DNA from: Urechis unicinctus
Lineage: Eukaryota; Annelida; Polychaeta; Xenopneusta; Urechidae
NCBI GenBank assembly: GCA_034190875.2
Contig: CM067358.1
Span: 44,328,543-44,392,542, forward strand
Reading direction: 5' to 3'
Length of the DNA: 64,000 bases
Part shown: piece after piece, positions 1,915 to 62,395 of the stretch
Layout: the number at the start of each line of letters is the position of its first letter
How positions within the stretch are numbered: position 1 is the stretch's first letter
Translations under genes and position numbers: made by a program
The notes under the pieces: generated by a model
What the model saw: the letters and a program-made list of their open reading frames with translations, nothing else
The model's database searches: none
What the model was told of the DNA's origin: nothing

Positions 1915-2940
1915 CTGGTTGTAAAAAAAACGACATGCTCGCGAGTGTAGCCAAAATAGCGCACACTCCGATAGGAACTGCAAGACCTTCGTTGCACTCA
2001 TCTATAATGAAGCAGAAAACACTTGATGGCATTATCTGTTGATATTAACCCAACCCTCTGTCTTTTAACAAGATCTAGACGATGAACATGTTTGTTGATG
2101 AAGGATGTGTAAATATGGCTTGGCAATTGGAGTTGTATGTGAAAAACTGCATAGATGAAGTCATGTGCAACGCTAATTGGACCTTATTGGCTATCGTCTA
2201 GCGCTCTAAGTCTTTGTTGTGAACGTTGTCTACAGTACATTTTGTCGATTTACTATGTGAAATATGTCGTTGAAAGAGTCATTTATCATGGCCAAGTGGA
2301 GTTTGTGGTGCGTTTATTGGAGTAAGAGCGATGATAATGCGGTCAGTCTAAGAAAACCTAGTATTACATGGTTACTTGGTAGCGTTGTCTATTTGCTTTA
2401 AGATAATATAACATGTATCTGACCAACCAGCTGCTAGCTTTTGTTACTAGCATCAAGTGTAATAAATTACGTTAACTGGTGGTGCATTGGAAATACTGGT
2501 TGGGCGGAAAGCAAGTATTTATATCAATGTATGTATGGCGCTGTAAGTCGGTGATAAATAATTTGCACACACCACGCCACTGGCGACAATGCGTTTAATC
2601 ATTCATAGCTGATTTGGAATGATGAAAAGAGGACGGAATTGCCACGTGATACGAACGAATACCTCAAGGGCGAGTTGGCAGAAGGTGTTGGATATTGGCG
2701 ATCTTGTGTAGTGTAATGAGTACAGTGTACGAATCGGTATTGGCCAGAATTGGGAACGTTTTAGAGACGCCAAACGCTACAGTGTTTCATGTTTGATAAG
2801 AGCAGCGTGTCCCCTGTGTCACTCTTATCTCCGTGATGTTCCGTCAAGAGATTCAAATTGCATTGGCAAGATATTGCGTCTCGGTACGTCACCGCATACC
2901 AAAGTAACAAACAGGTGGCTTCGAGATACTTGGCCGCGGT
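1915..2940. other. GPCR 3' flank, likely 3' UTR then intergenic
   Basis: Non-coding by inspection. A short A-run follows the stop codon. The first plausible poly(A) signal is the AATAAA at 2,461. Weak similarity to about 28.5-28.8 kb begins near 2,640 and becomes clear from 2,945, so the 3' UTR probably ends before 2.6 kb. Confidence 0.4.
2461..2466 (+). terminator. Candidate poly(A) signal for the GPCR transcript
   Basis: AATAAA, followed within 20-30 bases by a GT-rich stretch (GGTGGTG) of the sort expected downstream of a cleavage site. It lies about 550 bases past the stop codon. Another AT-rich variant lies near 2,555, so the choice between them is uncertain. Confidence 0.35.
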
Positions 2941-2944
2941 GTGT

Positions 2945-3215
2945 GTTGCGTGGGCACTGCATTGATTAACAACCTTAGGCAGTACCGACGTCCCTATCAC
3001 TTGCTTGTACATGATATGACGATGCCTGATAATGACGCGACTCGACTTGGGAGGTTATGCAGTGGGTTCATGTTTGCGACCAATCACGTACCTTCTTTTC
3101 TCCTCCATTTCCCTGACTCCTATGTTCCTCGCTCTTTGATCGTTATTTATCGCTTTTGCCTCAGTTCTGCCTTTTTCTCAACTGTCAACCTACAACTAGA
3201 ATATCCGTAACTCTC
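2945..3215 (+). repeat. Dispersed repeat family D, copy 1
   Basis: Colinear and same-strand with 28,832-29,095 and 33,168-33,385. Shared landmarks in order are a CGTGGGCA(C/T)TGCAT segment, CACTTGCT followed by ATGATATGA(C/A)GATGCC, CGACCAAT, then a pyrimidine-rich tract containing TTCCT, GCTCTTTG and ATCGTTA. I see no conserved reading frame. It looks like an old duplicated or transposed non-coding segment. Confidence 0.55.
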
Positions 3216-3724
3216 TTCCTCCTCCTGCAGCTCCCCTTCAGCAATCTCGGGTTTGGTTTTGCAAGGCTTGCTGAGCAATTAAGTCAAATGCGCATCTTAC
3301 CGCTACGTATTGAAGCAACCAAATCACAGCAAAATATATACTGTACATAAAGTTATATGAATAATAGTTTTAATATTTTGATTTGAACATGTAACTTACG
3401 GTAGCAGAGACAGCTTATAAGACATGTGTTTCCTAAAAGCGCTATTTATTGTAGTATCAAAAATATGCTTACCAATTGAATAATATTTCCGCTAATAGGA
3501 GGTGTAGTCAGAGGGCCACACATGCAACGCATATTGCTTGCGCCAGCGCATTGTAGGTAATAGGTGTTCAGCCGTTTAGATTTAGAAAATTATTAGGTTT
3601 ACGTCTATCGACTCAGATTGTCTTAGCGGAATCATAATGGGTGCATGACCTTGGAAGAATTTTTCTCAAGTGCGCCAGCATCCGTTCTTGTTGGCGTACT
3701 TACGACTTATCTAGTAGCTCAAAT

Positions 3725-3790
3725 CTCTAATGAGGTCATGTATCGTCTGGATGATGACAGCTTATGTTGCAGAGAACCTCGTGCACTGTG
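3725..3790 (+). repeat. Short duplicated block with a shared open frame, copy 1 (partner 13,650-13,715)
   Basis: About 73 % identical over 48 bases by hand. Both copies are open in the same frame and both read S-N-x-x-M-Y-R-L-x-D-D-S-L-x-C-R. About six of the 13 differences are synonymous. This may be the remnant of an ancestral coding segment, or chance. The downstream frame is not shared. Confidence 0.4.
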
Positions 3791-6151
3791 GTGTAGACTT
3801 GTGGTATTGGTTAGCAAGCTGAGTAACCCTAAGAATATCTAATATCCATACTAAAGGTGCTACACGACAAATACTGTTGTCGCGCAACTCATGGCGGTGT
3901 CGGGGACTTTTATGTACTTGATTCCAACGAAACCCTACATATGCACTCGCCGCCCGCTTGTTGTCACAGACAAAAGGTTGCCCTTCCTAGATTGGCATTC
4001 TGATTTGCTTACACAAATTAACACGCTAAATGATTGCGAACACAGGGCATTAAGTAGCCCAACGTCACTCAACAGCACTTTAGTCATTGGGCGATTAGTT
4101 CTTGGTAATCAAGAAGACCACAGTACTTATCATATGGACTCTATGATCCCTATTCGTATATGAACGCAATTGTTTATCACAGGAGTGAACGGCTAGAAGG
4201 CGAACCAGAGGTAAGGCTGAAATGTATTGAGAGGCACTTGATACTGTAGGGGTAACCTTCGTACCGAGACCTCTGGGCAATATGATATCAAAATACCCTC
4301 CAGGATCCATTATTCACATAGGAACAGGCATGAATCTGCCATTTGGAATGCAAACTGCCGAGCTCATTTTAGGTAGACATTTTGTGTGATCCTAGGCTCC
4401 TTACTCTTCACGCATGCGCTAGAAATCGGGCATACCAACTTTTTCCTTTTAATACAATGGAATATACAGCTAAGGTGGCATTCCTGAAGTTTAAGCTAGG
4501 TTAGGGCGATGTTGTAAGTTAAACGGCATTTGAGTGCTTCCGTTTAATCAGTGATGTAGGTAATACGACGTATTTTTCCGCTATTTGGGTGGCAAACCAA
4601 CGCAAATGCACTTCCGCAATCGCCAGCGACATGCACACATCCATTTTTTTGTTATTATCTTGTACGCGCAACAAACAAACGATACCTACTAACTGTTATT
4701 GGAGGTACACAAAACGTCAGAACATTGGGGATAAATGGGAAGTAAAGACAGCCAGTATTCCTAAAGCAAGCTTGGCCCAACACAGCGAAAATCCGCTAAT
4801 GCAATATAATTCCTTCCATTCTATGCTCTCCCACAACGGCAGGTCTGCCTTACGATTGTTTGTTGTGCTTGATATGCCACGCCTAGAAGCTGATAAAACC
4901 GGGTTACGAAAAAGGTCCGATATGCTGAGGTACAAATCCGACCCCCTTAGACTCCAAGAATTTTGTAATTAAGATACCGTTATCTTACTGGCTATTGTCT
5001 ATGAGGCTCCGAAGGCGTCCGATGTCGAATTGCATAGTCCTTAAGCATAATCCTCATTAACGAGGAAATGTGCGAGGATTCTCGGCTACTTCATAGACGA
5101 ATTTGATATAGAACGAAACTAAGTAAAGGGTATATTGCCGGTAATTGCTCCCATGAGTCTTACATTATACATGTCTTAACTTGTTGATATGATTGTCGAG
5201 GCATCGAACATATTTGCAGAGTGCAATTGCTAGTGGTTTAATGTGTATGACGGGGGAGTAATCAATATAACTCTTCCAAATACAACACTGCATATACTTT
5301 GGCATTTGTTAAATTATTCAGAAAACCAACAACTCATTGGATTCAATAGTCGCGCAGCCTTATTTTAAGTTTATTTTTACAAATATGTGATCAGCGTATG
5401 GTACATTTGGACTTGACATAATCACCAATGCGTTTGCTGGGACTAAACTGAATCGTCACGGTGTTTATGTCTCCACATGCTGCTATTTGAGGATCTGAAG
5501 ATCGCTTCAGACAAATGGTGGCATGGGACAATTGTTATGTTTAGCAAAGTACGTTACCGATATTTCTTTGTTCGTTGTCTGAGGTGTGGGCCTAGCTTAT
5601 ACAATTGTATACCTTGTTAATTTGTAGTCGTTTTAATAAAGCCTCAAAATCTGTTGTTCTCTCATATAATATTGTATGTATTATGCATCCGATTCCTGAA
5701 TGCCAACAGCTAGATCTAGGCAATATATTAGTGTTACAGACTGCTCTGTATTATTATCATAATATATCAATAACCGAGCTTCCTCGGTGAAAAACATTTG
5801 AACCAGCTTTTAGATGAAGTGCTTAGTGTGATCATTGGCTCGTAATCAACTCTTATATTCAGAGAAAAGCAGGACCTACTCATTTCCTGCGCATTGTCAC
5901 CCCTGCAGCGCAAGGTAATCAAGTCATTGCGAATATTAATATGATAAAGATATGTATGCGAGGCTAGCGTATAAACCAGGACCTACTCTCGATAGCGGCT
6001 TTACTGCCTGTGATACCCCATTGTTGCCTGTCATTGTGCCGTTTGACTTAAATGAGGGCTACCATTGGCCACAAGTTTGTAACTCGAGGCATTTTATTAA
6101 CCACATCGTTGAATCTCTTGATTATAAATACATGAGCGTGTTCGTGATTTA

Positions 6152-6170
6152 GGGTGGGGGGGGGGGTGGG
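6152..6170 (+). repeat. G-rich tract (GGG-T-G11-T-GGG)
   Basis: Homopolymeric guanine run with flanking GGG triplets. It could fold as a G-quadruplex on the plus strand. No gene context suggests a role. Confidence 0.6.
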
Positions 6171-6413
6171 CAGACAGGAATTGATAAATTAATAATTCAC
6201 TTGGTCAAAATCGTACCCACTCGTACCAAGTAAATTTATAATGCGGGATAATGTAAATGTGTATGGCAGCTCTAAGTTTTCCGGGTTAGCAAGGGACCAG
6301 TTCGTAGCCTTTCGTGAGGTATCCCAGCCACGGTGGAGATGTGAGCTCCTCTGCAACCTGCGGATTAATGATTCTGAGCAGTTCATGCTCGCTTTTATAA
6401 CGAATTGAAACAT

Positions 6414-6531
6414 CGTGTGTATATCTTACTGTCAACACGCGTGTTTAAACAACTATCATCTCGCGTGCATAACTTATTGTCACTTCGTTTGGATAACTTG
6501 TCTCTCTCCGTGTCTAACTAGTTCACACAAT
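6414..6531 (+). repeat. Degenerate minisatellite, about five units of 22-26 bp
   Basis: Units begin with CGTG or CGTT at about 6,414, 6,440, 6,464, 6,486 and 6,509. They share a core resembling TAACTTxTTGTC followed by C/T-rich bases. Units differ at several positions, so the array is old. Confidence 0.6.
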
Positions 6532-6575
6532 GCCAGTAGAACTATATACTGGTCATAACATTCTAAAATTCTAAC

Positions 6576-6614
6576 ATTGCATTATTATATAACAAAAATG
6601 TTATACAGTGCAAT
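6576..6614. repeat. Imperfect hairpin / inverted repeat
   Basis: The left arm ATTGCA...ATATAAC and right arm GTTATA...TGCAAT pair across a short A-rich loop. A second palindrome, TGTTATATAACA, lies about 100 bases downstream. Near-inverted arms (CAATGACATC at about 6,611 and GATGTCAC at about 6,733) could mark a small MITE, but terminal repeats and target duplication are not clear. Confidence 0.4.
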
Positions 6615-6744
6615 GACATCTTAAACAATTAAGCTGCGACGGCAATAACATCATTCAATCAATTATAACTGACTTCGTTGGTTCGGTAATTTATAATCCA
6701 GAAAATGATGTTGTTATATAACATTGTGTGGTGATGTCACTTAC

Positions 6745-8425
6745 AGTTTCTATTGGAATCATATTGAAGCAATGTATCTTATAACAATACCATGATTATG
6801 GGTCAGGCTGACTGGACAGTTACAAATCGAAGGTACAAGTGAACTTCTTGACAGAATTCATTCACACGTAATATTGATTTTCAACATTTGAAAGTGACAT
6901 TTTAAGCCGCCCCTATACCTGATAACATATGATATTTACCAACATTTATGATGGGATGTGGACTTTTAGAAGGGTTACATTACATAGCTTGCCTGTCATG
7001 CGTCAATATTGCTTTGAGGGTTTGCTGTCGTGTGGAAAATTGCGAAAACGTTTTCCAATGTGTCTCGCATAAGTGGGCCAAACGCCATTCTCTAAATAAG
7101 GATTATTACTGTAGATAAGGCCTTTGCCTTTATCGTAACAATATTCTGGCCAAGGAAGTACACAATATTTTGCTTCACGTACTTTCATTGGCAAAGCAGC
7201 AATGAAAAACAAGAGTACGAGAGAAGTAGTTGGCCTACCTATACGCCTATTAATTAGCTTTAAAAAAAGGTGCGTGTTCTATTTTGCAAATCTATTGTTT
7301 AACGACTACATCCGGCGTACACAAAACAAAACTGTGGTGGTCCATTACTAACTTTTCTTATAATTATATAAATCTTATAGTTGGGTCAAATGTATGTAAG
7401 AAGATAATAAGGCCTGTATGAGCCAAAAAGAAGAAAAAAATCATTTCCAAGATGCGATGCAAGCATCATTTGCAATAACGGCAGATTAAAGCAACTGGTT
7501 ATAAGGAGTACGGTCGTGTTGACCCTATGGTAACTGACCTGTGGTACAGAAGGTTTTACATAGATCTACGTTTAAAATGTGGCACCTTGTGTTTGTTAAA
7601 GTTGCCGAATAAATAAAAGTCAGTAACTGGAACATATGCAACCCTTGATATGAGCTAGTCTCAGACGAGCTTGTGTTGTTTAACTGAGCAGTTTAACTAA
7701 GCTCTCTCATAATTGATTGTTAGGTTTACAGGGAATGCATCTCCCCGTGCCTTTATGTATTTTCCGACCAATCTATACAACGAAAGAGTTAGTCAATTTA
7801 GGCTTGTGCTAGGTCAAATTGCTTTGCACATCGACTTTTTGTCTAAATACGGTCGCTATTTAAGCCCGTTATGAAAGGCCTATTCCACGATTAGTTCCTG
7901 TTCATTTCATCTGAGGCATATATATGCTTTATCCATGTGTTGATTTGACAGCTGGAGAAAAACGTCATGTGTTTAGTGTAAGAAATATACCCTGCATATT
8001 GACAGTTTGGGAATGTCTATGTAATGATCCCTGGGGTTGTTTGTCAGCCCACTATATTGCCCAAGCACGCAAGGTGCTGTTTATATGCTTATGTGCCATT
8101 TCACTGAAGAAAGACATAACATTGACCTTTAGTTTGCTGTACAATGCCGGACAGTGCCGTGGCTGTATAGCTTTCACAGCCTGCGCATGTATTAGGTTCA
8201 TAACGCCGTTATTATTTTAACCGTTGCCTTGAAAGATTTTTCCAGGTAATTGCCGATGACAAGCGATTTGCAATGCAACCGCCATATGCAGTAAGTCACT
8301 TAGTAGATTTACCGACTAAGCTCTTATTTTTCATATTTTAATCACTACAAGCACTGACAAAGGTCACATCTAACTGAAATAGATTGGACAAAACACACCT
8401 ATAGCAAATTAGAACAATGACAATA
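6745..8425. other. Intergenic, nothing recognised
   Basis: Only short open frames with no motif. There is a small direct repeat of GTTTAACT near 7,680-7,700. Confidence 0.5.
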
Positions 8426-8430
8426 TTTGA

Positions 8431-8520
8431 TAATGCCGTCGTAATACATGTATTAACACGTTCTATTCCAGGAGTTGAAGCAACTGTATTTCATTGCAAT
8501 GAGCAGTGTCATGCTAAAAC
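8431..8520 (+). repeat. Dispersed block E, copy 1 (partner 18,211-18,312)
   Basis: Shares CGTCGTAA, then TATTAACACG and CAGGAGT in the same order and spacing with the partner, about 10 kb away on the same strand. The match fades after about 90 bases. Confidence 0.5.
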
Positions 8521-9221
8521 CTGATATTTATTATTGGACAGGTGTCCTAACCAAAAGGCAGTCAAATATTTAAGCAGTATTACGATTTCAAAGTAATTTA
8601 TTCCTCCCTGAAATACTAGCATCGTGGCCAATATTCTGACCCACATATTGTTTATTTGTTCACAGCTTTGTACTTCAACTCAGTAATCGTTGATTTGATT
8701 TGGATATGAGATAATTAACAAATGACACTGCAACAGTGTGCAGCGACCAGTTGCGCTTTCGTTACCGATTACAATAAGCAGATCAAGTACGGTTTTGACA
8801 AGGGTAGGCGAATTATCACACCGCGGCAACTTATTCCATAATAATTAATTGTCTTTTGCTGTTTAGCCAAATTAAATTTTCTACCGCATGGGTGTCATCG
8901 AGCATATTGTATTTGGTTTTTCTTATATCAAATTGCTGCTATTTGATCCCAGTAACATTCGATTATGAGTGAAATTTCTATTGAGACATGTGGATATATG
9001 GCATACTCAAACATTACCTTGAGTCAGGCTATAAAATAACCACAGTCCACCGAGGAAGACTTATCCTGGACAATTCATAGCGTAAATGCATATCACAGTT
9101 AAGTGTTTACTGTTTTCCTGCTTTAGGAGCAATGTTCATGATTTGATCAACATTTATAAAATTGTGACCGTCTTTATCAATTAGATATTATGTAATAACT
9201 GCAGAAAGCGTCGTCAACCAG

Positions 9222-9740
9222 TGTGGAGTCATAATGCAACCCCCTCCCCCCTTAAATATCTAACCGTGATATCTAAATTAAACGGCCACTATCCAAATTT
9301 AAATAGTCCCGGTGTAGCAAGTAGAGCTCTTTGAAGTAAACATTCCCAACCCGTCAATTCCCATAACAATTAACATCAGCCCGTTTGATCTTTAATTAAA
9401 GCTAAAGGTAATTGTACCTCCACGCTTGCTGACGACGCCACACATTTGTATAAATACCTCCGTCCCAAGAAGTTAAAAAGACATTCAGCATTGGGGCAAC
9501 GATACCGTCAACGTCGTACGGACCAAGTTGGAAGGCCAACTCAGTACGGCACATAGTAGTTTGGAATTCCAGTTCAGCAGTAGCCTCTGGACATCATCAG
9601 AGTTACTCCATATCACAGTTTTGTAATATATATTCGGACTTGCGGGATACGGAATCCGTACCCCAACATTCAGAAATAAACCTCCGTTTTCTAGTTACCA
9701 TTCATTTGACGTCTCGTCTTCATCACTGCGACTATAAACA
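9222..9740 (+). mobile_element. LTR-like segment of an LTR retrotransposon, about 519 bp
   Basis: The segment starts TGTGGAGTC and ends ATAAACA, consistent with TG...CA ends. TATAAATA lies at 9,449-9,456 and AATAAA at 9,675-9,680, about 220 bases apart, with a further 60 bases of putative U5. This is the normal U3-R-U5 order. The bases after 9,740 (GTGCCGACGTTCACGG) look like a tRNA primer-binding site, which would make this a 5' LTR of a plus-strand element. No gag or pol frame follows: from 9,780 on the sequence is like the background, so the internal region is lost or decayed. I found no target-site duplication. Confidence 0.45.
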
Positions 9741-10780
9741 GTGCCGACGTTCACGGTGAAAAAATAATTGGCACTATGGTGAAGAAATGTGAACGGGTTA
9801 TAAATCTGCTGTGTTTTTCTGTAATTCCAAATGTATTTAAGCAAGCAGAGCGCGAATGTTGCCCATGGCCTGTTTTGTTCCTGAACATTTTTGCCATTGG
9901 AAAGCGTTACTGCATATCATCGCAGTGTGTGTCTTATAGCTTTCATATATACGTGCGTAAGGCAGAACAGTTACGGTTCGGTGGTGCTTTATAAAGCAAT
10001 TTACAGAATAATATTGCCTCGCCATCCCTTTTAATGCTTTTTACCAAATACATTCACCGTCGTCTATTATACTGGGGTAACGCTTATTTGATCATATTTT
10101 GAGAGCACGATTTATGTTGTTTTTTGTCGCCACTGATGAGAAGATTATTACCGAATATCATCTAACGAATTGCATATGTGTTTTAGTGAAGCATCACGGC
10201 GGAAGCATTTAGTTATATAAAATTGTTCCTAGCATTCGGCGTGTACCATATATTATATTTAAGCTTCGCGTTTGCAAACTGAATTGCTTTTATAAAGCAC
10301 GTATTCTTAGATAGTCAAATTCGGAAGAGACGAGGTGTCTTCAGTGTGAGTCCATGACACCCTGACACTTTCTTGGCAGTATGCCAGTTCACCTTGGGTC
10401 GATACTCGGGTTATTTCCTATTGCGGCATTAATACTTTGTTTGTTTTCGGATTATATTCGCTCAAGGCGAGCCAGAACGCAAATTTTACGTGAGTTAGTG
10501 CACATAGCTTCCACGTTAAAGCAACAGATCTGCTGCAAACAACAAAACTGGCCTTAAAACATAACGACTCACGGACACAGAGACGTGCAGAGTGTTTCAT
10601 TATTAACAAAGATTTATTCTTTATTGTTTGGCAGTAAAACTTTTTCTGATAACAGACACAGCGCACAGTGCCACGGATCGGCATGATTTTACAATAGGTT
10701 TGACATAGATGGATTATGTGCGTCTTATAGCTAATCCGTCACATATCAACCATGACTGATAAGTACAAATAGTTCGTGTT
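9741..10780. other. Intergenic after the LTR-like segment
   Basis: AT-rich, short frames only, no retroelement protein motif. It ends where the 10.8-13.3 kb duplicated unit begins. Confidence 0.45.
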
Positions 10781-13270
10781 TCGCATTCATGATAGGATAT
10801 GATGATAATAACATTGGTGCTTTACTTCATCTCAGCAACGTGGTGATTTCGCAACGGCTTTGAATAAAGATGATTGTGACGCTTTGGTAGCCTTCAATTA
10901 CAAGTGTCCCATTTAGCACTGAACGGTATTTGCACACTTAATGGTATTTCTCGTGAATGCTCACCTCGTAATGCAGCTTAAGAATTTCGACGAATGGTAC
11001 CTTTTCCAACGAAAAGGAGCAAGAAATTGCATTTCCTTAGAGGGCATGACAGCTTTATATTCCTTCGGTTTGTTTAACCGAATTAAAATCAAACTTACAC
11101 GAAAACTCGCATTTGTAACACAATTAACCCTGCTTACTAACTAGTAACTGTTTTCCCATGGATTAAGCATTGCGCTTTCACCCCGCTTGAGTGGCACGCA
11201 CCGATGTTTTCTGCTAGTGAAACCAGTTCTGAAACACATAAATGTTCAGAAGATAAGCCCGGGAGACATTTAGCACGTGTTTGCTGGTGGAGAAGGCTGT
11301 CAAGACTGATTTAAGGGTTTGTGCCAGGTGGCCACTGTAGAGCTATCCAAGCATCACAATCATCCTCATCCATCTCCGTCGCGATATGAGCTTGTTGTTG
11401 AAAGTGACGTTCAACCCCAAATAACCAATGCTATCACTAAGTATAAACGTAATCAGTATCTGAAATTGGCTGAGATTTTAACAATACAAAGTGTAATCCA
11501 TCTATAAATTCATTTTTTATAGAGCACAGTCAGCTCGTGGACGGTATTTTCCGTAACATGAACACGATATATTTCTTTGTCAGATGGTATAATTATAATC
11601 ATTAGGCAATAACCAGTCAAACCCAAAAAACCCGATATTGTAATGTTGACATGCCATCTGACGATTATCTCTTGAAAGGTTGGACAACAACGACCCCACC
11701 ATAGCTGGCATGTCAATAGTGCAATCATTGTGTGTAGCATGGCATTATCGACTAGAAGGCGGACCTTTCTTGATATATTAAATAAAACTGCTCGAAAATG
11801 TGCATGATCTATGGCTGAGCCTATTCCACGTGGCTTTTGTACAAACCCCCGCACACACACTAAAGAGTGGACACAGTTATAAAGATCAATACATTTAACT
11901 CGGAAGCAGTTGAATGAGTGCTATAATAAGCTATCAATAGAAATATGAATTTATGCATTCAAACAAGCATTTATATGCAGAATAGCCTCCGTAATTGAAT
12001 TGATTACATTTTATTAGATAGCACTTAAGTGAGCAATGAATTTGCACTAGAAACATGGTAACAGACATTCATAAGCAGATGGTTAACGTGGATGTCTATT
12101 TTGAGTAGATATAATGCTTTAGGTTAATTGACCAGTTCACACCTGTTGCAACACTAATGGCTGCTCTAAGGCGAAGTCTTTGTTCTATTATTCGGGTTAC
12201 AAACTACTTCGCGGTTATCGAAAGCGGCACACATGCTATTTAATCAGAACGTGTCGTGTTCCATTCGGCAGCAACGCTCTTGATGCGGCGGACATACCAC
12301 ACTTTTTGCCTGATCTTCTAAATGCTTTACCCAGTTAATTCGCATGGCGTTCCAATATTGACCTGCCCTATCGGTCACTTATTTTGCTAATACTACTGTA
12401 ACTGATTTGATTCCCACGATGCAGGCAATATATTATCGCCAACAACGCACATACGCCAGCTCTAGCAAAAAAAAAGTAATTAACTAGTGAAATGCCATAC
12501 AGCTTAAGAAACAATTCAATCATACTGTTATAAGAATAGTGATTGTATTTAATCAGTCGAGGTCGGATATTTTCTCAAAATATGTATGTGAGACTAGCAC
12601 ATGCAACAATATATATTCTCCCCTACAAAAAGTATATGCTACCATGTTATTTTCGTACCATCGTCAGCTCTTGAGACGCAGGGCCAAAACTAGATTAGCT
12701 CTGACTACAATTGTGTGACATCATCATTAAGTAATGCTGGTTTAATGTCGAACACTCCCTATGGCTGTATAAATCGACACACCCCTACTTTGGGCGAATA
12801 ACGGACATATCTGGTACACGCTATTGGAGGCCTAGCGATATGATTTCCTAATCATGTTTATTCTTAAGATACCTATGATTGACAGAAAATGAGCTCTATC
12901 GATATCATATGATACTGATCAATTCACTGAAACTTATACCTTGAGTCTTGTGCGTGTATGATCACGACCAGTTAGAGTAAGGCGTAGATAACACAAGATT
13001 GCCTATCTATCAGGTGCACGTCAGATAAATGGATTTGTCTCTCAAGCGATCAGATCAGTATGAAAATTGGCCTGTGTGTGTGCGGCAGTAACAGCTAAAC
13101 ACCAGCTTTGCAATGCACTAACAACTTTGATGTACAGGTATATTTGCATTGACATTTACTCCCATGACATCAATGAGTGGTCATTTAGCGACCAAAAGTG
13201 TATTGTTTACCAGTGTGATATGTTAATTTCCAAAGTGTATTTATACGTAAACACTAAGCGAGCAGTATTA
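10780..13270 (+). repeat. Segmental duplication unit A (partner 13,765-18,810)
   Basis: A series of short same-strand matches in conserved order: 10,780-10,915 with 13,765-13,915; 10,940-11,040 with 14,480-14,600; 11,278-11,880 with 15,211-15,850; 11,884-12,340 with 15,911-16,400; 12,582-12,640 with 17,190-17,245; 12,830-13,000 with 17,395-17,555; 13,030-13,270 with 18,545-18,810. Identity is about 65-75 % by eye with many indels. No shared long reading frame, so it is probably a decayed non-coding duplication. Confidence 0.65.
12830..12900 (+). repeat. Dispersed family A element, copy 1 of 5
   Basis: Carries the shared series GATATGAT, a TATTCTTAAG-like stretch, and CTATGATTGACAGA. Other copies lie at about 17,395, 36,055, 37,540 and 38,125, all on the plus strand. 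Confidence 0.55.
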
Positions 13271-13649
13271 TTTGTGCAATCGTTGCACGATTGCCTAAAT
13301 AAATCGAACCATCTTACGGTTTCATTAAACGTTTGAAGGATTCTATTGAAGGATTCTAAGTAAAACGTTCGGGGTAGCAGTAATGTTACGTCTATTGCAT
13401 ATGTATAATAAAATTGCTCACAAGTAAACCCGCGCTTATACTGGTAATGGAAACAGTTGGAACGACATCCGAATATAACGCACGGTTCATACACTAATGT
13501 ATTGCGGGAAATTGTGCTTTCATTCGTTGGGATATAAGCAATGAGTAGGTTTGTGAGTTGTGTTAGCGGAAACACACCATGTGCATCCTATGGGCTGCAA
13601 GTGCGCTAACAACCTTTCGTCTTTTTGACATACTTGAGAAATCTCTCCA

Positions 13650-13715
13650 TGCAGCGATTCTAATGGGGCAATGTATCGCCTTTATGATGACAGCCTCGTG
13701 TGCCGTGGTATATTG
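13650..13715 (+). repeat. Short duplicated block with a shared open frame, copy 2
   Basis: Partner of 3,725-3,790. Reads S-N-G-A-M-Y-R-L-Y-D-D-S-L-V-C-R in the matching frame and reaches a stop about ten codons later. Confidence 0.4.
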
Positions 13716-14487
13716 TGCTATCCGGTGTTAACCTGATTAATGGTACTTGCAAACAGGGAGCACTGTCTCGTGAATGATTCATGATAGGTGATGGTACCCT
13801 TAGGGTTTTGCGTCACTTTCAACAACAAGGTGATATCGCAACGGTTCTGGATAATGAAAATTGTGGTGATTGGTCAGATCCCTTCCAATGAAAGCGCCCA
13901 TTTTGGCATTGTTCCGTTCCCCACCCTGTGAAACCCACGCCGCTGATACAAAGGTAAGCACGACAATATGTAGCTACGGGGTCCAGAGCATCCACTTTTA
14001 GATATGGTTAAGCAGTTTAATGCGATCATCCAAGTCACGACTTCAACATGTGCTTATAAGACGTGCAAATAACATTATCGCGGGAATCTTGGCATTGGTT
14101 GTGTGTGTCTTTTACATACATGCTTCTTATGCACTGTATTCGAGATCTCGTAATAAACGATCCAAAACAATGCTCACGCCGCCAGTTCATTGTCGCCAAC
14201 AGTGTCCATTCAGTACGCGCAATCCTCATTAAAGACCATGACAAATATAAGAGATTTTTAGCATCATTTGCACATTATAAAACCACCGCATTTGTCAGCA
14301 CCCTCTCTAACAGCAATATGAGGAATAAACATTGTCTGTTCAACAGATATCCTTAGAATATAATGTTTCCAGTAGCGTAAATTGAACTATTGAAAAGATA
14401 GCATTTAATGTTTGCAGTTCTAATCTATATTTATATCAATAGACATTTGAAATAAAGGAACGCTACTTACATACATATTGTATTTCT

Positions 14488-20795: not shown

Positions 20796-20853
<58 letters not shown>

Positions 20854-52129: not shown

Positions 52130-52270
52130 TTCTCAAGCAATATTTATTACGGCACTTGGTCCTTTACATTGAAGATACCAACTACGTCGGCTGTGAGGCA
52201 CATTAGCGATAACAAGATTGCAAAACAGATGACATATGCTCCACTCAAGTGGTTAGTGGGTCATTTTCAC
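52130..52270 (+). repeat. Duplicated block N, copy 1 (partner 57,060-57,180)
   Basis: Shared order: TGGTCCTT, CACA, ACTACGTCGGCTG or ACTACATAAGCTG, GGCACA, GCAAAACAGAT(G/C)ACAT, then (T/C)AAGTG. Confidence 0.55.
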
Positions 52271-52699
52271 GGGGCAAAGTTACATACAGATCGATTTGAT
52301 AACAAAGCAGATTATCTTATTATATGTGTTAAAGAAACCGCTTCGAGCAAGTGAGACGAGCATCTAACTGGGGTGAAAGAGTGTGGTGTTACTTATAATC
52401 AAGCATATGAACATTATGGAAATTCTCTGGCCATATATGTATACAGTAGTTGAATCTACGTACATTCAACGTGACATTACCAGTAAAAAGAGTGATGAGA
52501 ATGACTCAGCATGCATTTGGTCTATATATGCCCGTGCTTTCGTTATAGGTTTTACAATTCAGTAATGTGCATCTTATATAGCTTTGCCGGTATCATAGGC
52601 TTACTTCTTTTCTTTCCAGACAGACATATGGCTGTTTGACATGCTTGCTGTGACCACAAATGCACACACTTAACCTGAACGATCTTTTCGCCATCATCA

Positions 52700-54470
52700 A
52701 CCATGTATGGGCCTCCTTTATAGTATAACACAGCTGTACTGTCATGTTCTTTCTTATTCATCCTAGTTACCCGGAAATAGGTGTTCAGGTGCTGCTACCA
52801 CCATCTGGTCCGTGTAGTGATCGGCTTAACAGGCAGCCCTTTTGGTGTGATGATTTAGCGCTGCCCGCGTTTGGGACAGTTTTTTGATTGTCCTCTTTTT
52901 GGGGGTGAACAACTGCGCGAGTGCTTGATCGATGGATTTTTGGCATCTTGTTTGGTCAGTGAGCAATATCAGAAAGTGCGTCAGACCCTCTATTCCTTCG
53001 TCTTTGTCGTTTAACGTTTCAGCCAAGACAGAGAAGGTTCTAGTGACGTCATCAAATATCCTTCATGTACCCCACGCTGTTTTCCACCGCAAGAACTCAC
53101 CGCGTAACACCGTTTTAAGGCATGAAACGCTAGTAAGGCAATGCATCAATCTGGAATGTAGAACAACAGTAGAAATTGATATGTGATATTGTATTGTGTG
53201 TGCAACCGCAACCCACGAGCCGGTTTCATCCTCTGAGCGGCAGTCAATGGTCTTGCACTGTCGTCATGTGCTCGGGTTATCTGTACTCTCTGCATCAGGC
53301 ATCAGGTGACAGGTAGTTTTATATGAACCCTCGACTTTTGGTAATGAAGGATCCAGTATGAGCATAGCAGCATGGCGCATACTGATGTACGAGTTTTGCG
53401 AGTCGTGTGAACAAGTAGAACTTAAAAGGCCTGGGCTGGTTGAGACCTACATACTGAGCTGGACTGTTGATGTTAGGACCCTACAGCACTCAGGTAAAAA
53501 GTGTCGAGAGGGAGTCGGGCACTGTTCCCACCTGGCTCTTTACACCAAGTGAGCCACTGAGGAGTTGCTTCATCTTGCCCCTCGTGTGGATCATGATGTC
53601 TAGGCATATAGGTAATGTTGACTTCCTGTCTTAGTAGGCCCGCCTTCAGTAGCTATCTCCAACTAACGTGTCAGACTGTAATAGTTATAGCTATGAACGC
53701 GTGAGGGCTTATTGAGTCACACACACTGAGGTGAACTGGGCTTTGATTGTTGGATCATCCATCACTATTATAACTAGTTCAGAGAGTGTACCATGGTGTG
53801 CAATTTGCATGTTTCGAAGCTGTGACCCTCATCCAGTCATGCCAATGCAGGTGCACTGATCAGGCCATTGATCTTGTCAAATGCTGCAGGATTCTCACAT
53901 GTGGTCACGTATCCTGTCCCGTCTGTACAACATTAGGTAGACATTACAGCATCTCATGTCTTTCTGACAAAGACATTCATTTGTTCCAGTCTGGCAGACT
54001 CTGTGTTTCTGATATTCATGGCCAGTTTGGATCAACTCACTCGAACAGTTTGGCCATCACCCCTCAATGTACTATGTAACGTAGTAACAATATGTGCTAT
54101 CTCTAGCACAATCAGCAGCTGAAATCACCAGTAGAAGCAAGTCAGCTGCAGCAACAGTCACATAGCAGGGTACATACCAATCCAGGTGAGCTACAAGAAT
54201 ACAGAAATGCAGAGTTGACGCTATCAATAGGTGAATGTCAGTTCCGAAAGCTGCACTAGCAACATTGATTGGTATGTGAAATACTCATTGTCATGTATAT
54301 GCAACGAAATGTTTGTGCGCACATAAGTATTGGAGGTATGCAGAAAAGGTGTGGGCCGATTCATGAGTTCAGGAAAACTGGTGCACATCCGCTTATATGT
54401 TGCTGGTTTCTGTAAAGTTACATATATGTATTTGCCCTTGCTCACGTGATGCAAATTATGCTCTTGCATT
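52700..54470. mobile_element. GC-richer insertion-like island, unidentified, probably a decayed element
   Basis: This stretch differs in base composition from its surroundings and lies entirely in the 3.5 kb that duplication copy 1 lacks. On the minus strand about 52,826-53,060 is open for some 78 codons and reads like a soluble helical segment followed by a basic stretch. On the plus strand 53,786-54,079 contains CRC...CC...CGHxxCPVC, which recalls a RING-type or other zinc-binding motif but lacks proper spacing. No transposase, integrase or RT motif is visible and the ends are undefined. It could instead be a decayed host gene fragment. Confidence 0.3.
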
Positions 54471-54949
54471 TCACATTCTTGAAAAGGTCAGATAAGCATC
54501 CGGATCATATGTGGTCTGGAATCAGAGCTACATACCATAACAACCGGTTTCAGCCATTCTGGAAAATGTTGTTACGGGATAAATATGATATGGCCCGATA
54601 GACAAGATATAACAGTGTGCTACGCCCCCATTTTCTATCTGACACCGTAGAATTTGTTTAGTATGCACGAGGGGTAGAGGCGGGTGGGGGATTGGGTAAG
54701 GCGCAACAGGTTAAGGAATTATCAATTCGTCAAAGCCGAACGGTAATTGATATGAATCAGTATAAATCAGCTAAAACACGATGTTGAATTTCTTTTTGTG
54801 GTTTGCAATTTGCTTCTTTAATGCTGGAATTTATAGCCGGTAGACATGAATGGCTTCAACACAGCGCTACTTACATTTAAGTGGCATCGTCAAAACATGA
54901 TACGCTGGTTTTCAACAACCAGCGGTAGACTTTATTGTCTTCTTTTAAT

Positions 54950-55115
54950 GGATCCACATTGGATGGTAGATGAACATTTTGTGGCTTTGATGTCCGTATG
55001 CAAAACACCGCGCCTAGCTATCTGCGCCTACAACTGATCGCTTCAGCCAAAACAATTACATTGGACCATGAAAAAGACTGACATGTATTAAAGTGAACAG
55101 GGCGGCAGTGACACA
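54950..55115 (+). repeat. Dispersed family C element, copy 5 of 6
   Basis: GATCCACATTGGATGGTA, TTGATGTCCGTATGCAAA, AAAGACTGACATGTATTAAA, GGCGGCAGTGACAC. About 75 % identical to 39,788 by eye. Confidence 0.6.
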
Positions 55116-56029
55116 AATGTGCCGATCATTGTGTGCTATTAATATGTACTGGACATGATTTAGCATTTATAATAGTATATGGATCCTCTTGACCACAAAG
55201 TAAGCTTCATTGGCGAAAAATCGCATGTTGCTTTGAGTTATCACGGGTTTTGCTTCAAACAACTCGCGAGTCACATCATCTTTAACACCTGATGTACTGT
55301 ATAGCAGCGTACTTGATGCAAGAAGTTAAGTGCTATGTATTTGTAGAGAGGTGTCGAACAATCATATTCGCTCGTTTGGTATCAGATGGTAAGTCACTTC
55401 TTGCTTCAACAAATTTTCGGCCATATTTGACTGAGCTAGTGTAGGTCATGGGGCACAAGCAGGTGATGTAGGGAAGGTCCGCACTAGGTATGTTCAATGT
55501 ACGCAAGCTGCTACATGTCTATGCAGATATTGTGGTAAAATAACGTAGTTCTGGTAATCCTATTGACTTAATAACTGGGGTACGGGTTTGTTTGACAAAG
55601 ATTCATGGTGGCATATAATACCAACATTCTGTTGGAAATACACAGCAACTGTGAAGGCATACCGCCATCCTGCTTCACTGCATCTATACCGCGACACTCA
55701 TATACACTAGTCTACATCCCTAGACTCTGGGGGTTCGCTTCTCTCCACTGCCTCAGAGCCAAATAGGGTTGAGCCTGAGAGAATATGGAGGCTCAAGGGA
55801 ATGGGGACCTAGATCACATATTCACATTGTGCTTTCATGCTTAATAACAAAGATAAACGTTCCTTAATCCATCGAACCACTAACTTGCTCATATATGATA
55901 TGGGCATTTCTAATACAAGCATGACTGTTCTTGTGAAACCAGTTTCTACATTATAGCTACCACATTCATTTACTGAACAGGGGAAAGCGACGTGTTCAAC
56001 TCAGCAACGGCAGATATAGTTTAGGTCGG

Positions 56030-56330
56030 TTAATTACCCTGTGCACCATTGATAGTGTTTTCCGTTTCACGACCTGTGTACATCAACATATTGCTTTCGT
56101 TATGTTAGTGGGAATTCTGCGTAGCTACATTACAGATATCGCGTGCAGTATTCCTCTGCACATTGTTGTTTTACACATCTTGAAAGCGCCACTTAGCAAC
56201 GATATCAAATAAATGGGTTTGCCGGCCAACTCAGAGTCGGAGCATGTGGTACAGATGCAGAAATACTCCCACAAGTATCCTTAAAGCACTCGAGACCCAA
56301 CCTCCGCAGTAAGATGTAAATGTCCGCCGA
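56030..56330 (+). repeat. Block B, copy 3
   Basis: Partner of 42,750-43,090 (GTATTCCTCTGCACATT, AACGATATC, CGGAGCATGTGGTACAG, CTCCCACAAGTAT, GACCCAACCTCCGCA). Confidence 0.65.
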
Positions 56331-57059
56331 ATTTTATCCTTGCCCTCTCAAATTACGCCGCAATATAACATACGACAATAACACCACGACAGTCCCATAT
56401 GTGCTTGAAATATCACGCTAAACAGATGATATCACCAGGTTACAGAAGAGGTAAAAAACCTTTCTAATGGTCCAAGTTCTATATCAATTACCTCATAGAC
56501 TTATAAGCAGATAATTGTATGTCCCAAACTCTACGCTTTACTTCACAGCCTAACTACAAGTAGATATAAATAAACTAGTTATGATGCAGTTAATGTAAAT
56601 ATAATATCGATGCTGTACATATCATCGCCATCATATTATCATCATTGTATTTAACCCACGAAATGTGAGACATAACGTGAATGCAATTGAACACAATGCC
56701 GATTCTCTGGATTGCAAATATGATAAGCGTAGCTTGTTTGGTGCAATGCGTGAAGTAGCAACATAATATTACATAAATTCGACCACCTGACTGGTAATAT
56801 GAAATATGCGTGTCCGCTTGCCTGGATTGCATCCGTTAAAGGTGTCATCACAATAACGCGAAGTACCTGAAGAATGTATGATATGGTTGGAATATCTCTT
56901 TACTGATTTAAGACAGGCGCGTGTCCGTTCGCAGCTTTTTATGATGCGCGTTTCAGATGTACACATAATATCACTGATATCGTTATGACTGGTCAATGTG
57001 TTCACTAAGAATCTTAAAAAGAAGTATTCTTTGTCCTACATGACCATAAGTTGTATCTT

Positions 57060-57180
57060 ATAAAGACGCATGGTCCTTCACAGGAGACACAACTACATAA
57101 GCTGGCTGCCAGGCACAGCAGATCGCAAAACAGATCACATGTGTTCTACTGAGGAAGTGCGCACTTTATCAAAATACATA
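57060..57180 (+). repeat. Duplicated block N, copy 2
   Basis: Partner of 52,130-52,270. It lies about 180 bases before the conserved block at 57,362. Confidence 0.55.
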
Positions 57181-57361
57181 TGACAGTCGGTAAATCAGGC
57201 CTACAGGTATCACAGCAATAATTTGACCAAATCCGTACGCGATATTGCGTTTCATATGCATCCAAACTCAACAAAATAGTAGAAAGAATGACCTCCGGAT
57301 AATAGTGACAGTAGCGTAATGAATTATGATGTCTTATCATCTTACATACGCTTGAAAAAAA

Positions 57362-57434
57362 GACATCAGAGCATTTGCATTAATCAATCAGTTGACGGCT
57401 GGCAAAGATTGATTCCCCAGTGACGAGATTTTCA
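57362..57434 (+). repeat. Best-conserved duplicated block, copy 2 (partner 45,322-45,394)
   Basis: A 29-base stretch (57,381-57,409) is identical to 45,341-45,369, and about 62 of 73 positions agree overall. Well above the other blocks. Confidence 0.75.
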
Positions 57435-57480
57435 GGCTATGAATACATGCATGCATTATGTAAGTTGACGCCATGGTCGT

Positions 57481-58680
57481 ACTTCTGCGGAGAGTAATCC
57501 CTCATCGTAACGTTTTCATTTCGAGTCGCACGGTGAGTACAAATACACACAATGTGTGATGTTCCAGCTCATTTCCAATGGAAATCAACAGACAAATTAA
57601 TCACTTCAGCCGACTGTTTGCATTCTGACAATGACCGAGGAATTAACAAAGATGTATTTTACATGGATAACATGCATAATGAATGATATAAGTAAATCAT
57701 GTCATGTGAACGTTCCATGTGCATATGGTCTTTACACCGAGAACCGTTATCAGCGGCATCGGCTCCAGTGATGGGAACGAGCAATACTACATATCCACGG
57801 CTCGTGAGGTCACGGCCATTACTCCCAGGGTCACCATTGATTAACAAGATGGTTGTCGTGAAATTTGACTGAAGAAGAATCTCAGTGTAAGTCAAGATTT
57901 GTGATTGCTCATGGACCCTCAAAAGGACAAAAAGTTGATGCCTTGCCTGTCGAATTGCCGACTTCGAATATTGTGTACAATACCGGCTCATCATTTTTAA
58001 TCAATAACTCAGCAAACGCAACGGCATTACACGTAGGTCATTAAACGTAGGCCAGTTCGTTGCTGAGTCAAACGAATCACTGATGTGCAATAAACAAGCG
58101 CGCACATGAGATACTTTCGATTCTGTCTCCCATCAAATTATCAGCATTTGGTATACGTCCGTACCATTTGCTAGTGTGAACTTTTCGTATTAAGTTCGAA
58201 AAGAGTGTGTAGTCTGGTTTGGCTATAGCGAATATAATTTTTTGCATAATAAAACTTCTATGTAACGAAGGCAAGGTTAAATATCGACCAAATATATAAT
58301 CGTCTTACATTCTTATTCATGAACGATCAGCAATCTATTAGGTAGGCAGATTCTATCACTGTAATCTTGCTATGCAGTATACAATGAGAAGTAATTCGTC
58401 ACTCTATAGCATTGTTCGCAATTCTGTTTTCATTGCCCTCTTCCAAATGGGTTTATTCATTATTTGGAACATTTTGACCATTGCGACAGACCGCATGTCA
58501 ATGGGAATGATAACACTCGACAGTGATTAATGACATTTAACATGATGCAATTAGTTGTTTGCTGTGTAAGGTAAAGGCATCATAGCACTTATGTCTTTAT
58601 CACTTATTCCAAAACAACTTATCGACAAATGAAGCGTGGACACATATATGATCAGATAGCTGATAAATGTTCTACTATAC
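57481..58680. other. Intergenic, nothing recognised
   Basis: Short frames only. No clear match to other blocks beyond background. Confidence 0.4.
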
Positions 58681-59530
58681 AAATTTATTCGCTCCGCTTT
58701 TATTAGATGCTAAATCATTTCCTGCCGCAACAAATGTCCGGTCATATTTGGCAGGCTCAAGATATGCCGTGATGCGTAGACAGATGATTAATGGGTTATC
58801 GCTACAAGCCATAGCGTAATAAATTCAACGTTTGGTAATAAATCGTCAAATCCACCATTCTTGCAAAACTTAGGCAGTGTAACACATCCGGGCAAATACT
58901 GTACGGCAACCAGACAGGCATTTCAGCTGCTCTGATGCAATAACTAATAATTACACCAGTGTTGTATTGTCAGCGCACCTTAATAACTGAATAACCCCCA
59001 CAATACTGCTGAAAGTACACCCCAACCCCTTGCTGTCAGCACTGCGCCTCTAGTTCTTTCGCTTGATTGCACTGATGCACTTGTTGCACAAATTTTCAAT
59101 GAACGTTTTGATCATGCAAACACCTATAGACACGCACAGACTTTGAATCAAAAGCAATGATTGTGCTAATCCTGTCGACCTAATCATTTAGCTCCGGATT
59201 TGGTGACGGAAATATGTGTTGGCTTTATGTACGTAATGTATGTATTAAGTGCCATGTCTTGACAATTACTACTCAAGATACACAGCCAACTGTTAAAGCA
59301 TACGGTTGTGTCGACCATTATGTTTTACTGCGTATTCCATGTGTCAAGTGTTTCTTCACTGCGCTTCGAGATTACCAGTGGCCTTTATTTTGTGCTGCTG
59401 CTCCTTGCGCAGCCACATGGATCGCCCATGCATAACCCATTCATCATACATAAGCTCTAGCCATCTTTGCAAATTTGCAAATGGGTGTTTGAGATTAGCA
59501 ATTTTTGGCAAGCAGTGAAAATAATGGTTT
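58680..59530 (+). repeat. Partial third copy of the 40.5-41.4 kb segment
   Basis: 58,690-58,805 aligns with 40,490-40,615 and 55,375-55,490 (ATGCTAAATCA, CAACAAATGT, CATATTTG, CAGATGATT). 59,093-59,320 aligns with 40,963-41,180 (TTCAATG(T/A)ACG, CGACCTAATCATTTAGCT, ACACAGCC). 59,462-59,525 aligns with 41,285-41,345 (TTTGCAAATTTGCA, GCAAT, GCAG(A/T)GA). Confidence 0.6.
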
Positions 59531-60559
59531 GATGACAAAAAGCGGTAATTTGAATAGCACTTAAATAGCGCATGGTAGGATTTTGTTTTACAGCTGTCTA
59601 GGCACAAACAGCTTCACGGTTTATGATGATTGACTCGGATTGTGTGAACGGAATGGTATCGATTACTATGCGCTGCCTAACACAAGCGTAATCTTCGTTC
59701 CGATGCCTCATGGTTAGTTAAGATGTAACTACCCAAGGAGATCGGTTATCTACGGCAGAACGCGCACCACGCAGTTGCTTTTCTTAGCGATCTTCGCTTC
59801 TGATTCGTCTATGCATAAACTCAACAGAAAACTCAGTAAGCAGTTTTATAATAATAGTAATTCGCTCTTCTTAAGAAATGTGAATGACGATGTTAACGAA
59901 CATCGGAAACGGGTAAAAGTATCGTTCGGTTTTTTAGTCGGTTCCATAGCCTATGAACCTGACTGTTTTAGTGGTTCCGTTGCATGTTTTCATTATTAAG
60001 GTAACAAATCGACTACTTAACCAACTTTGCCTACACCGCTCGCGTGCCTATTCAGCATCTTTCAATTATGAATGTGCCACATAAAACCGATATCCAATAA
60101 AATTGTAGGCTAATAAAACGACTGAACATTTTGGATGGATGAAGAGATATAACTGCAACAATCCGTGCGGCTAACGAGGCCCAATTTGCGCAAATGTATC
60201 TGGGTCGAATTATTTAAGCGGTTTTTGTTTGAAGCGCTTCTGTAACTGCGCATACTACATGTACACAATACTCTCGGTTGATTAACTAGGGTGATAGTGT
60301 TTCCAAGGTTGCGGTTGTACATCAATCTGCCTGTTAACATAGATGTCTGCTTTGCTATATTTATGGCTGGCTTAGCTGACAGAACTGATATTATATTAGA
60401 GAGAGTTTTTGACATTATATATGATTGAGTGACTCATTCCGGGAATAACTATGTCAATGTCCCGGACAGTCATATGAACAGATCCTTTTTCATTACAAAT
60501 GCGGTTGTTTCGGTCAATACTTGAAATAAAGCTCTATCGCATGTGCTATTGGTAGTCAA
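59531..60559. other. Intergenic, nothing recognised
   Basis: Short frames without motif. Confidence 0.45.
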
Positions 60560-60725
60560 CTAAATCCATGTTTCTCTGCAATGCAATTATGCAAAAGCTC
60601 GAAACGAACAGCTGATACGTCAATTACGCATCCAATATATAGCAAATCTTTGTTGATAAGATCATGAAAAGGGCAGGCACGTATTTTAATGAAGGTGTAT
60701 CATAGCAACAAGAATATGATTTAAA
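60560..60725 (+). repeat. Dispersed family C element, copy 6 of 6
   Basis: AAGATCATGAAAAGGGCAGG, CACGTATTTTAATGAAGG, CATAGCAACAAGA. Only the distal half of the family is clear here. Confidence 0.45.
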
Positions 60726-60799: not shown

Positions 60800-60800
60800 C

Positions 60801-60861
<61 letters not shown>

Positions 60862-60877
60862 TATATAGAGAGAGAGA

Positions 60878-60908
<31 letters not shown>

Positions 60909-61261
60909 AGGGAGGTATATCTTTATTTATAAAATAGAAATGTCTATATATATAGATCTTAGAGATATAGAGAGATATATATCTCTAGAGAGATATCTAG
61001 GGATCTCTCTATCAGACTATATCTATATATAGAGATATAGAGATATATATATAGATATCTATATCTCTCTAGAGAGATCTATATCTCTCTATATATCTCT
61101 ATATATCTATCTATATCTCTCTCTCTCTATATCTCTAGATCTCTCTCTATATCTATCTCTCTCTATCTATCTCTATATATATCTCTCTCTATCTCTCTCT
61201 ATATATATATATATATATCTATATATATATATCTATCTCTATATATATATATATATATATA
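60800..61261. repeat. Compound TA / GA / CT microsatellite with inverted symmetry, about 460 bp
   Basis: TA repeats pass into GATA/GAGA-rich sequence, then, from about 61,040, into CTAT/CTCT-rich sequence, and back to TA. The right half is broadly the complement of the left half, and short palindromes such as TCTCTAGAGAGA occur near the middle. Confidence 0.95.
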
Positions 61262-62395
61262 TGTTTATATTGCAATCCTACAGAATGTTTGTATTTTGGA
61301 AGTATAATGAACACGTTTGGTGTTCTTGTGACTGTAACCATGTGGTAATACGGGTCCAATGATTCATTGCAACACCATTTTCTACGCGCCAAAATCTGTT
61401 GCATATAAATTTGTACGAAATGCCCCCGGCTTTCAATTACTGTTATCAGGTGCCATGCGATAGGCCTTTAGTATGTTTTGATGAAGTATGTGGCAAGATG
61501 CAGTTTAAAGCCGGATTCAAGGCCACATGAGTAATGAGCAATGTTAAGAGACCTGTCAAGATTAATTACATGACGAGTCATATTTAACAGTATAGGTTTT
61601 ATTTTGCGAGAGGTTTTCAGTCATATTGGTGACGAGTGATAAGCGCGTTATCATCGTCTTGTGCGAGGCGTTCACGCAGCGAAGGCGTGCATGTATCTAG
61701 CAGAAGGGCTGCAGACCACCGGTTATTATAGAGCTATAATGATTGATCGATTCTGCGTATATCCAAGTGTTCTGCATAACCCTACTGATCATTTATAAGA
61801 AATATAACTTGTTTGCTTTGTTTGGGGTTATCATTATATGGGGGGGGGGGGGGGACCTAATTTGTACATATAACACTACTTTGAGATGTTCAATGTTACA
61901 GTGTTTTGTACGTTCACTTGTTTCGCGGATGCGTAGCGCCCAGAATGAACAAAGGTCAAACTCTGACGCAACTTAGAGCGCATCACTTGCACATGATATT
62001 TGAAAAGATATAGTAAAAAACACCCAATTGTGTTTGTGCTTTAAAGCGTAAAAAAAAAATAGGCTTTTTCATTTCATTGACCATAACCCTGTAGTTAATT
62101 ATTACATTAACTGAATAGTATACTCATTCGATACGTGTCGGCATACACTCTAGCGCATCGACGTGTGGGGATGTTACTTGGTTAGATATACTGATATTGG
62201 GTACATGAGCGTTAAGTCCGCTGAAAGTATCTTAAGCCTGGGAGGATCTTAACCTGATATTTTTACTGTCATAACTTGTACTCATCTTTTGCTTTATAAA
62301 GTACATGAGGCAGTGCTTCTGTGGCTTAAGTGAAAGCTGCTTTTCCTTCCGAGTGACCTTCCATATATGTATACAACCTTCACGTCTCTGGAATC
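61262..62395. other. Intergenic before the LINE, includes a 15-base G run
   Basis: No gene. A G homopolymer lies at 61,840-61,854. The LINE 5' boundary is not visible and may lie anywhere in the last few hundred bases. Confidence 0.45.

Follow-up and report, generated by a model that had tools for sequence, protein, structure and literature searches.

A region of about 300 kb in Urechis unicinctus that probably grew by repeated local duplication of noncoding DNA

Introduction

Segmental duplications are usually defined as copies longer than 1 kb with more than 90% identity (as quoted in PMC9925758), and tandem segmental duplications, or low-copy repeats, are the described system closest to the locus reported here. 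In the sea urchin Sp185/333 (SpTransformer) clusters, segmental duplications lie within a short region, the segments carry genes and have short tandem repeats (STRs) at their edges, and unequal crossing over has been proposed (PMC5103432). In birds and mammals, pachytene piRNA loci are reported as intergenic, duplicated hotspots of structural variation, and pachytene piRNAs as coming from intergenic regions in which transposons are not dominant (PMC9925758).

The locus of U. unicinctus resembles tandem segmental duplications in that its copies are direct and colinear, with a minority of inverted matches, fall into several age layers and are restricted to one locus as far as searched. It differs in that the duplicated units hold no recognised gene and in that two dissimilar arrays flank one gene. 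Under the strict definition of 1 kb and 90% identity, only copies of the left array and an inverted duplication in the right flank would qualify; two large units of the right side, M1 and M2 (approximately 87% identical), and the pairs within the window (64-82%) do not. No gene was found in the segments where scanned and the association with STRs is weak, unlike in Sp185/333 (PMC5103432). The features shared with the piRNA loci of PMC9925758 are an intergenic setting and duplication. We found no report of a comparable locus in the literature searched, mostly at abstract level, and do not claim that none is in print. We consider it probable that successive tandem and nested segmental duplications of noncoding DNA built up this region of about 300 kb (C17:44.23-44.53 Mb), and that the copies afterwards decayed near-neutrally.

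Results

The window, that is, the whole 64-kb stretch of DNA analysed (contig CM067358.1, here C17:44328543-44392542), was compared with itself and with 100 kb on either side, giving a comparison set of 264 kb in which positions below 0 or above 64000 carry the window numbering into the flanks. Genome-wide searches were made against a genome of 1.19 Gb in 926 contigs. A single open frame of 426 amino acids on the plus strand (634-1914) encodes a Rhodopsin-family GPCR (Pfam 7tm_1, E=5.7e-21) just left of position 2500. The right edge of the gene desert is set near 62300 by plus-strand LINE ORFs (62466-64000), a LINE-like endonuclease ORF (Exo_endo_phos_2, E=4e-7) and further ORFs running on to 64891, of which those from 63313 encode a putative reverse transcriptase, judging from their residues. 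An ATAT/AGAT microsatellite at 20797-21597 (repeat scan, no strand assigned) is found genome-wide, and a 5-kb run of N occupies 91001-96000 in the right flank. TRF returned six rows for the window, comprising microsatellites and two short two-copy repeats, and no long arrays of short, near-identical head-to-tail monomers of the kind that characterise satellites. The observed/expected CpG ratio was about 0.9 overall and ranged from 0.50 to 1.08 in 5-kb bins.

A sequence-only reading of the window had proposed that block after block is repeated within it in nearly constant orientation, and both observations were confirmed. With blastn (E<=1e-3), the window matched itself in 25 pairs, 24 on the same strand and 1 on the opposite strand, with identities of 64-82%. 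When 125 tiles of 600 bases were searched against the 264 kb with nhmmer, 259 matches were obtained (248 same-strand and 11 opposite), compared with none for a control shuffled in 50-base blocks. Inside the window, 121 of 125 nhmmer matches and 64 of the 66 listed homologous pairs were same-strand; four pairs (two same, two opposite) touched dispersed elements, and the remaining 62 were all same-strand. The 11 opposite matches comprised four pairs of dispersed elements, six matches that pair window 45.9-50.2 kb with 77-78 kb, and one that pairs 43.6 kb with 163.9 kb. Tile profiles, which were built from plus matches and then searched against both strands, gave 575 same-strand matches among 591 non-self matches (249 usable tiles).

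The extent of this homology depends on the sequence considered. A within-window partner was found by nhmmer for 17,360 of the 59,801 bases of 2500-62300 (29%) and a partner anywhere in the 264 kb for 36,181 bases (61%), so that the description of the desert as built largely from itself fails for the window alone and holds once the flanks are added. Profile searches raised the within-window coverage to 21,232 bases, and 116 of 238 tiles had a partner within the window and 176 a partner of any kind. The homology does lie inside 2500-62300, where the array had been placed, but the array reaches far beyond these limits. Of the at least 14 shared blocks counted by eye, a few may be transposon copies, because four stretches of the window are dispersed elements.

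The colinear block order that had been suggested was largely recovered in four comparisons of units. Kendall's tau was 1.0 for 10-14 kb vs. 13.5-19 kb (10 pairs, one or two of which touch a dispersed element), 0.87 for 2-5 kb vs. 23-33.5 kb (6 pairs), 0.61 for 33-46 kb vs. 50-58 kb (12 pairs), and 1.0, from only 4 pairs, for 33-46 kb vs. 58.2-61 kb. The blocks concerned lie on the plus strand. Block T (2129-2663) recurs at 23718-24233 and 41743-42092 (nhmmer E 4e-10 to 1e-4), and block U (2718-3192) at 28755-29074, 33176-33357, and 42376-42678 (nhmmer). An older duplicate at 10920-13272 is copied in order at 14457-18808, and a run at 39716-41346 has an in-order partner at 54890-55697 and, in part, at 58515-59523 (blastn and nhmmer for both). 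Block P (37312-37788) has a duplicate at 37868-38379 (5e-27) and weaker copies near 12.8, 17.4, and 36.0 kb. Further pairs detected by nhmmer join 8005-8517 to 17794-18307 (8e-11), 38645-39131 to 50311-50844 (1e-17), and 45223-45456 to 57263-57491 (1e-21).

The main copies of block X, at 4.5, 16.0, 29.2, 42.8, and 56.0 kb, are separated by steps of 11.5, 13.2, 13.6, and 13.3 kb. They occupy 4486-4877, 15963-16369, 29153-29478, 42732-43123, and 56019-56413 on the plus strand (profile matches of 5e-79, 2.4e-92, 8e-57, 5e-85, and 4e-97, respectively). Two additional plus-strand copies at 12.1 and 59.9 kb (a partial copy at 12091-12236, 7.8e-26, and a copy at 59911-60276, 8e-74) each lie 3.9 kb from a main copy. 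A large unit of 5-12 kb had been envisaged; such a unit exists and the size was close, but the spacing of block X fits approximately 13 kb better. Minus-strand copies of block X at 29.1 and 113.0 kb were taken as an artefact of the aligner flipping sequences, and two rebuilt passes placed all copies on the plus strand. An iterated profile search of both strands of the 264 kb detected 18 copies of block Y, all 18 on the plus strand. The first core in the window is at 19280-19420, other copies are at 24402-24551, 27667-27826, 36835-36974, 37041-37164, and 39977-40136, and partial copies are at 55149-55215 and 60643-60695. The block Y copies share a core of about 160 bases, and among the matches listed the wider flanks align poorly.

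Self-comparison of the 264 kb and genome-wide queries revealed a larger layer of duplication. Macro-unit M1 (20302-61327, plus strand) is matched 75-100 kb downstream by a long series of same-strand blocks that form M2, a diverged and rearranged copy within window coordinates 104390-155398 (self-comparison, plus strand), and genome-wide queries placed a partial third copy, also on the plus strand, within C17:44504663-44532175. Mean M1-M2 identity was 0.868 over 178 windows of 100 columns, including a few that represent cross-matches between non-equivalent copies. The homologue of window 57.6-60.3 kb continues in M2 from the homologue of 42.7 kb, and M2 carries approximately 11 kb (115.5-126.6 kb) at a place where the approximately 2 kb present in M1 do not match it. 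A minority of events were not direct: window 45.9-50.2 kb has an inverted counterpart at 77-78 kb, and the right flank contains an inverted duplication whose copies are 95-97% identical.

The GPCR ORF sits between this array and a second one to its left, which spans about -97.5 to -1.2 kb (approximately 96 kb) and is predominantly same-strand (1249 of 1268 matches, self matches included). Identity is about 91-98% among the youngest copies of this array and about 65-87% among the older ones. One hundred tiles of the left array gave no match in the window and right flank, compared with 1268 within the left flank, self included; profiles from the window had no match below -1200, and left-array profiles had a single weak match beyond -1200 (-334 to -55, E 4e-5). 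Descent of both arrays from one ancient family is unsupported at the sensitivity used. An unmasked left-right search gave 432 matches, of which the 60 listed were mostly at microsatellite coordinates, and the masked search was preferred. tblastn detected no second copy of the GPCR in the 264 kb, and in a genome-wide search that scored 98 of 669 candidates its closest relatives are on C8, none of those listed lying near C17:44 Mb. A receptor cluster that lost its other members was rejected on these grounds. The two stretches that flank this single gene are dissimilar and both have expanded, whereas the gene itself was not multiplied there.

Divergence among the copies is layered. Kimura two-parameter (K2P) distances in the left array ranged from 0.013 to 0.349 over 124 alignments, with the majority of aligned bases falling within 0-0.06 and 0.1-0.2, which suggests that the array passed through at least two rounds of duplication. 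M1-M2 distances were 0.11-0.31 (24 alignments), and the right side suggests one round near K2P 0.15 and an older round within the window, whose pairs are too short or weak for a K2P count. The layer at 0.1-0.2 that the two sides have in common may be a coincidence. M1-M2 identity was somewhat more variable than a binomial expectation (standard deviation 0.051 vs. 0.035 per 100 columns). Between M1 and M2, identity was 0.849 in block X vs. 0.872 in its flanks (371 of 1479 X bases were comparable) and 0.897 in the block Y core (691 bases) vs. 0.867 in its flanks (5118 bases). Some islands of the left array, which were picked after seeing the data, were about 86% identical next to neighbours at 68-74%. 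From these alignments the decay of the copies looks close to neutral, but the slightly better preservation of the Y core and the conspicuous left-array islands may reflect some constraint or local gene conversion. The excess of breakpoints near microsatellites was weak (0.054-0.068 vs. 0.035), and microsatellite-driven breakage was not retained as an explanation.

The conserved blocks could be exons or promoters of a tandem gene cluster with short, fast-evolving exons and long introns, such as one for secreted peptides. The unit of approximately 13 kb, the constant orientation, the cores of about 160 and 300 bases amid less conserved surroundings and the conserved islands of the left array all agree with such a cluster, which we nevertheless regard as unlikely. 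Reading 17 copies of the Y core in all six frames met a stop in 99 of the 102 cases, and the indels in the alignments of block X and of the left-array islands are not multiples of three. Six-frame Pfam scans of 22.4-32.4, 33.0-48.0, and 50.0-60.0 kb (35 kb in all, with stops as X) gave no significant match, the sole hit among 42 frame translations being DUF3440 (E 0.049, 13.8 bits vs. a cut-off of 25). Eight long ORFs had no Pfam match above the cut-off, and a six-frame scan of 4 kb of the left array was empty. The claim that no host gene is recognisable over 60 kb therefore stands for what was scanned, the 35 kb and the eight ORFs, with the GPCR and LINE ORFs at the edges as the exceptions. 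A codon screen of 423 aligned runs, each 35 codons or longer, gave no clear signal of purifying selection on a reading frame (best z 3.3; mean 0.46, slightly positive), although it misses exons shorter than 35 codons and fast-evolving ones. The best run is on the minus strand at -69382 to -69221 and overlaps in sequence with a run at -53616 to -53506 (z 2.6). This screen thus gave no convincing signal of coding exons in the copies.

Both arrays around the single receptor gene might together form a noncoding locus that has a function and expands itself, such as a germline cluster of small RNAs or a cluster of lncRNAs; the plus-only Y core would then be its repeated functional element and copy number itself would be selected, a proposal that seems to us quite improbable. 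That the region is a noncoding RNA locus (a piRNA cluster, for example, or a set of tandem lncRNA genes) unstable enough to generate same-strand copies is very unlikely in our estimation. The region is tandemly duplicated with no gene recognised, and chicken pachytene piRNA loci are reported to be enriched for tandem duplications, but those loci are also enriched for transposons and are no farther from coding genes than controls, in an account that deals with birds and mammals (PMC9925758). An ARAGORN scan of the 264 kb was empty. Rfam matched nothing in the 264 kb, the Y alignment had no consensus base pairs, block X had no predicted pairs, and excess RNA structure was found neither for block X nor for three left-array islands, all of which counts against a noncoding RNA locus.

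The blocks might instead be fragments of transposon families that landed by chance in one orientation. Four window stretches are indeed dispersed (no strand assigned), and both opposite-strand pairs of the window touch one. A transposon-like element of about 600 bases at 9163-9768, outside the array, accounted for another 57 match rows, the majority of them at 90-96% identity; 11313-11442 and, in opposite orientation, 13782-14040 belong to an element found in tens of places in both orientations, the former stretch being among those behind the opposite-strand pairs; and an element of about 106 bases at 55708-55813 is not array-specific. The queried blocks behaved differently, lacking the many dispersed copies in both orientations that these four short elements show. 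Query 22378-29770 gave 10 matches genome-wide, all on the plus strand of C17 at 44.350-44.512 Mb (4 of 4 candidates scored). Among the 54 matches of query 50283-58546, those outside C17:44.37-44.53 Mb all fell in the 106-base element (40 of 247 candidates scored), and a left-array query gave 159, with the listed ones outside C17:44.23-44.31 Mb all in an AT microsatellite (40 of 6944 candidates scored). Apart from this element and microsatellite, the listed matches of the three queries were confined to the plus strand of C17:44.23-44.53 Mb. Two queries say little on the old blocks because they missed known neighbouring copies, bar one short element pair: 2000-10600 (58 matches, comprising itself and the 57 rows of the 9163-9768 element; 40 of 1537 candidates scored) and 10700-18900 (79 matches, comprising itself, the two dispersed stretches it contains and, about 314 kb upstream at C17:44026411, a 185-base match of 95% identity; 40 of 1616 candidates scored). 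The view that these are duplications and not ordinary transposon families is upheld for 22378-29770, 50283-58546 and the left-array stretch, none of which showed thousands of interspersed copies among the candidates scored, and gives way at the four dispersed stretches. With order and orientation conserved as well, chance insertion is highly improbable.

An assembly artefact from unmerged haplotypes or mis-joined contigs, to which left-array copies at 95-98% identity and the 5-kb run of N lend some colour, is barely credible and would concern the youngest copies at most, which could be uncollapsed haplotypes in the left array, since the 64-82% pairs and the divergence between M1 and M2 look too great for haplotypes at the heterozygosity to be expected.

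Discussion

Growth by serial unequal exchange or tandem duplication is the reading we favour because the copies combine direct orientation, kept order, apparent restriction to the locus and layered divergence. Judging from this anatomy, the local copying would have been driven either by sister chromatids or homologues exchanging unequally or by a replication-based form of tandem duplication, and every round of duplication would offer the next one more homology for mispairing. Under little or no selection, substitutions, indels and inserted transposons would afterwards erode the copies. As far as searched, the duplicated DNA appears to be private to the locus. The structure is mechanistically ordinary; what is unusual is its size, the lack of any recognised gene in its units and the position of a single receptor gene between two arrays that do not resemble each other.

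Serial local duplication, and not chiefly transposons, would account for the growth of these roughly 300 kb of DNA without recognised genes, in which two or more age layers can be told apart. If such loci are common in the genome, they would supply intergenic DNA overlooked by masking based on repeat families, and their copies would provide a natural series for gauging neutral decay.

Open frames at the edges of the desert and in the left array

The GPCR ORF (634-1914) had at least 104 match rows genome-wide, with 98 of 669 candidates scored. Among the matches listed, its nearest relatives lie on contig C8 (49-56% identity) and related ORFs occur in runs on C5, C8 and C2. Two minus-strand open frames were found in the left array, the same-strand duplications upstream of this ORF: one of 187 aa in a young copy (-83830..-83270, window coordinates) and one of 194 aa in a second young copy (-53573..-52992). 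The desert is bounded on its right by an open frame for a LINE-like endonuclease, followed by additional frames; together they occupy 62466-64000 on the plus strand and continue to 64891.

Dispersed and inverted sequences

A dispersed element of about 600 bases lies at 9163-9768; most copies share 90-96% identity (40 of 1537 candidates scored), and those at C4:43.284-43.302 Mb form a run in the same orientation. Window 11971-12155 has a 95% same-strand match about 314 kb upstream, at C17:44026411-44026593 (40 of 1616 candidates scored).

The right flank contains an inverted duplication (74958-96947, window coordinates; identity about 92-97%) centered near 84.7 kb. A stretch of N 5 kb long (91001-96000) adjoins it, and related fragments occur at 115.5-126 kb. 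Several matches connect 77-78 kb in this flank with window 45900-50200, all inverted, and these are the chief departure from the direct orientation of nearly all homologous pairs in the window and flanks.
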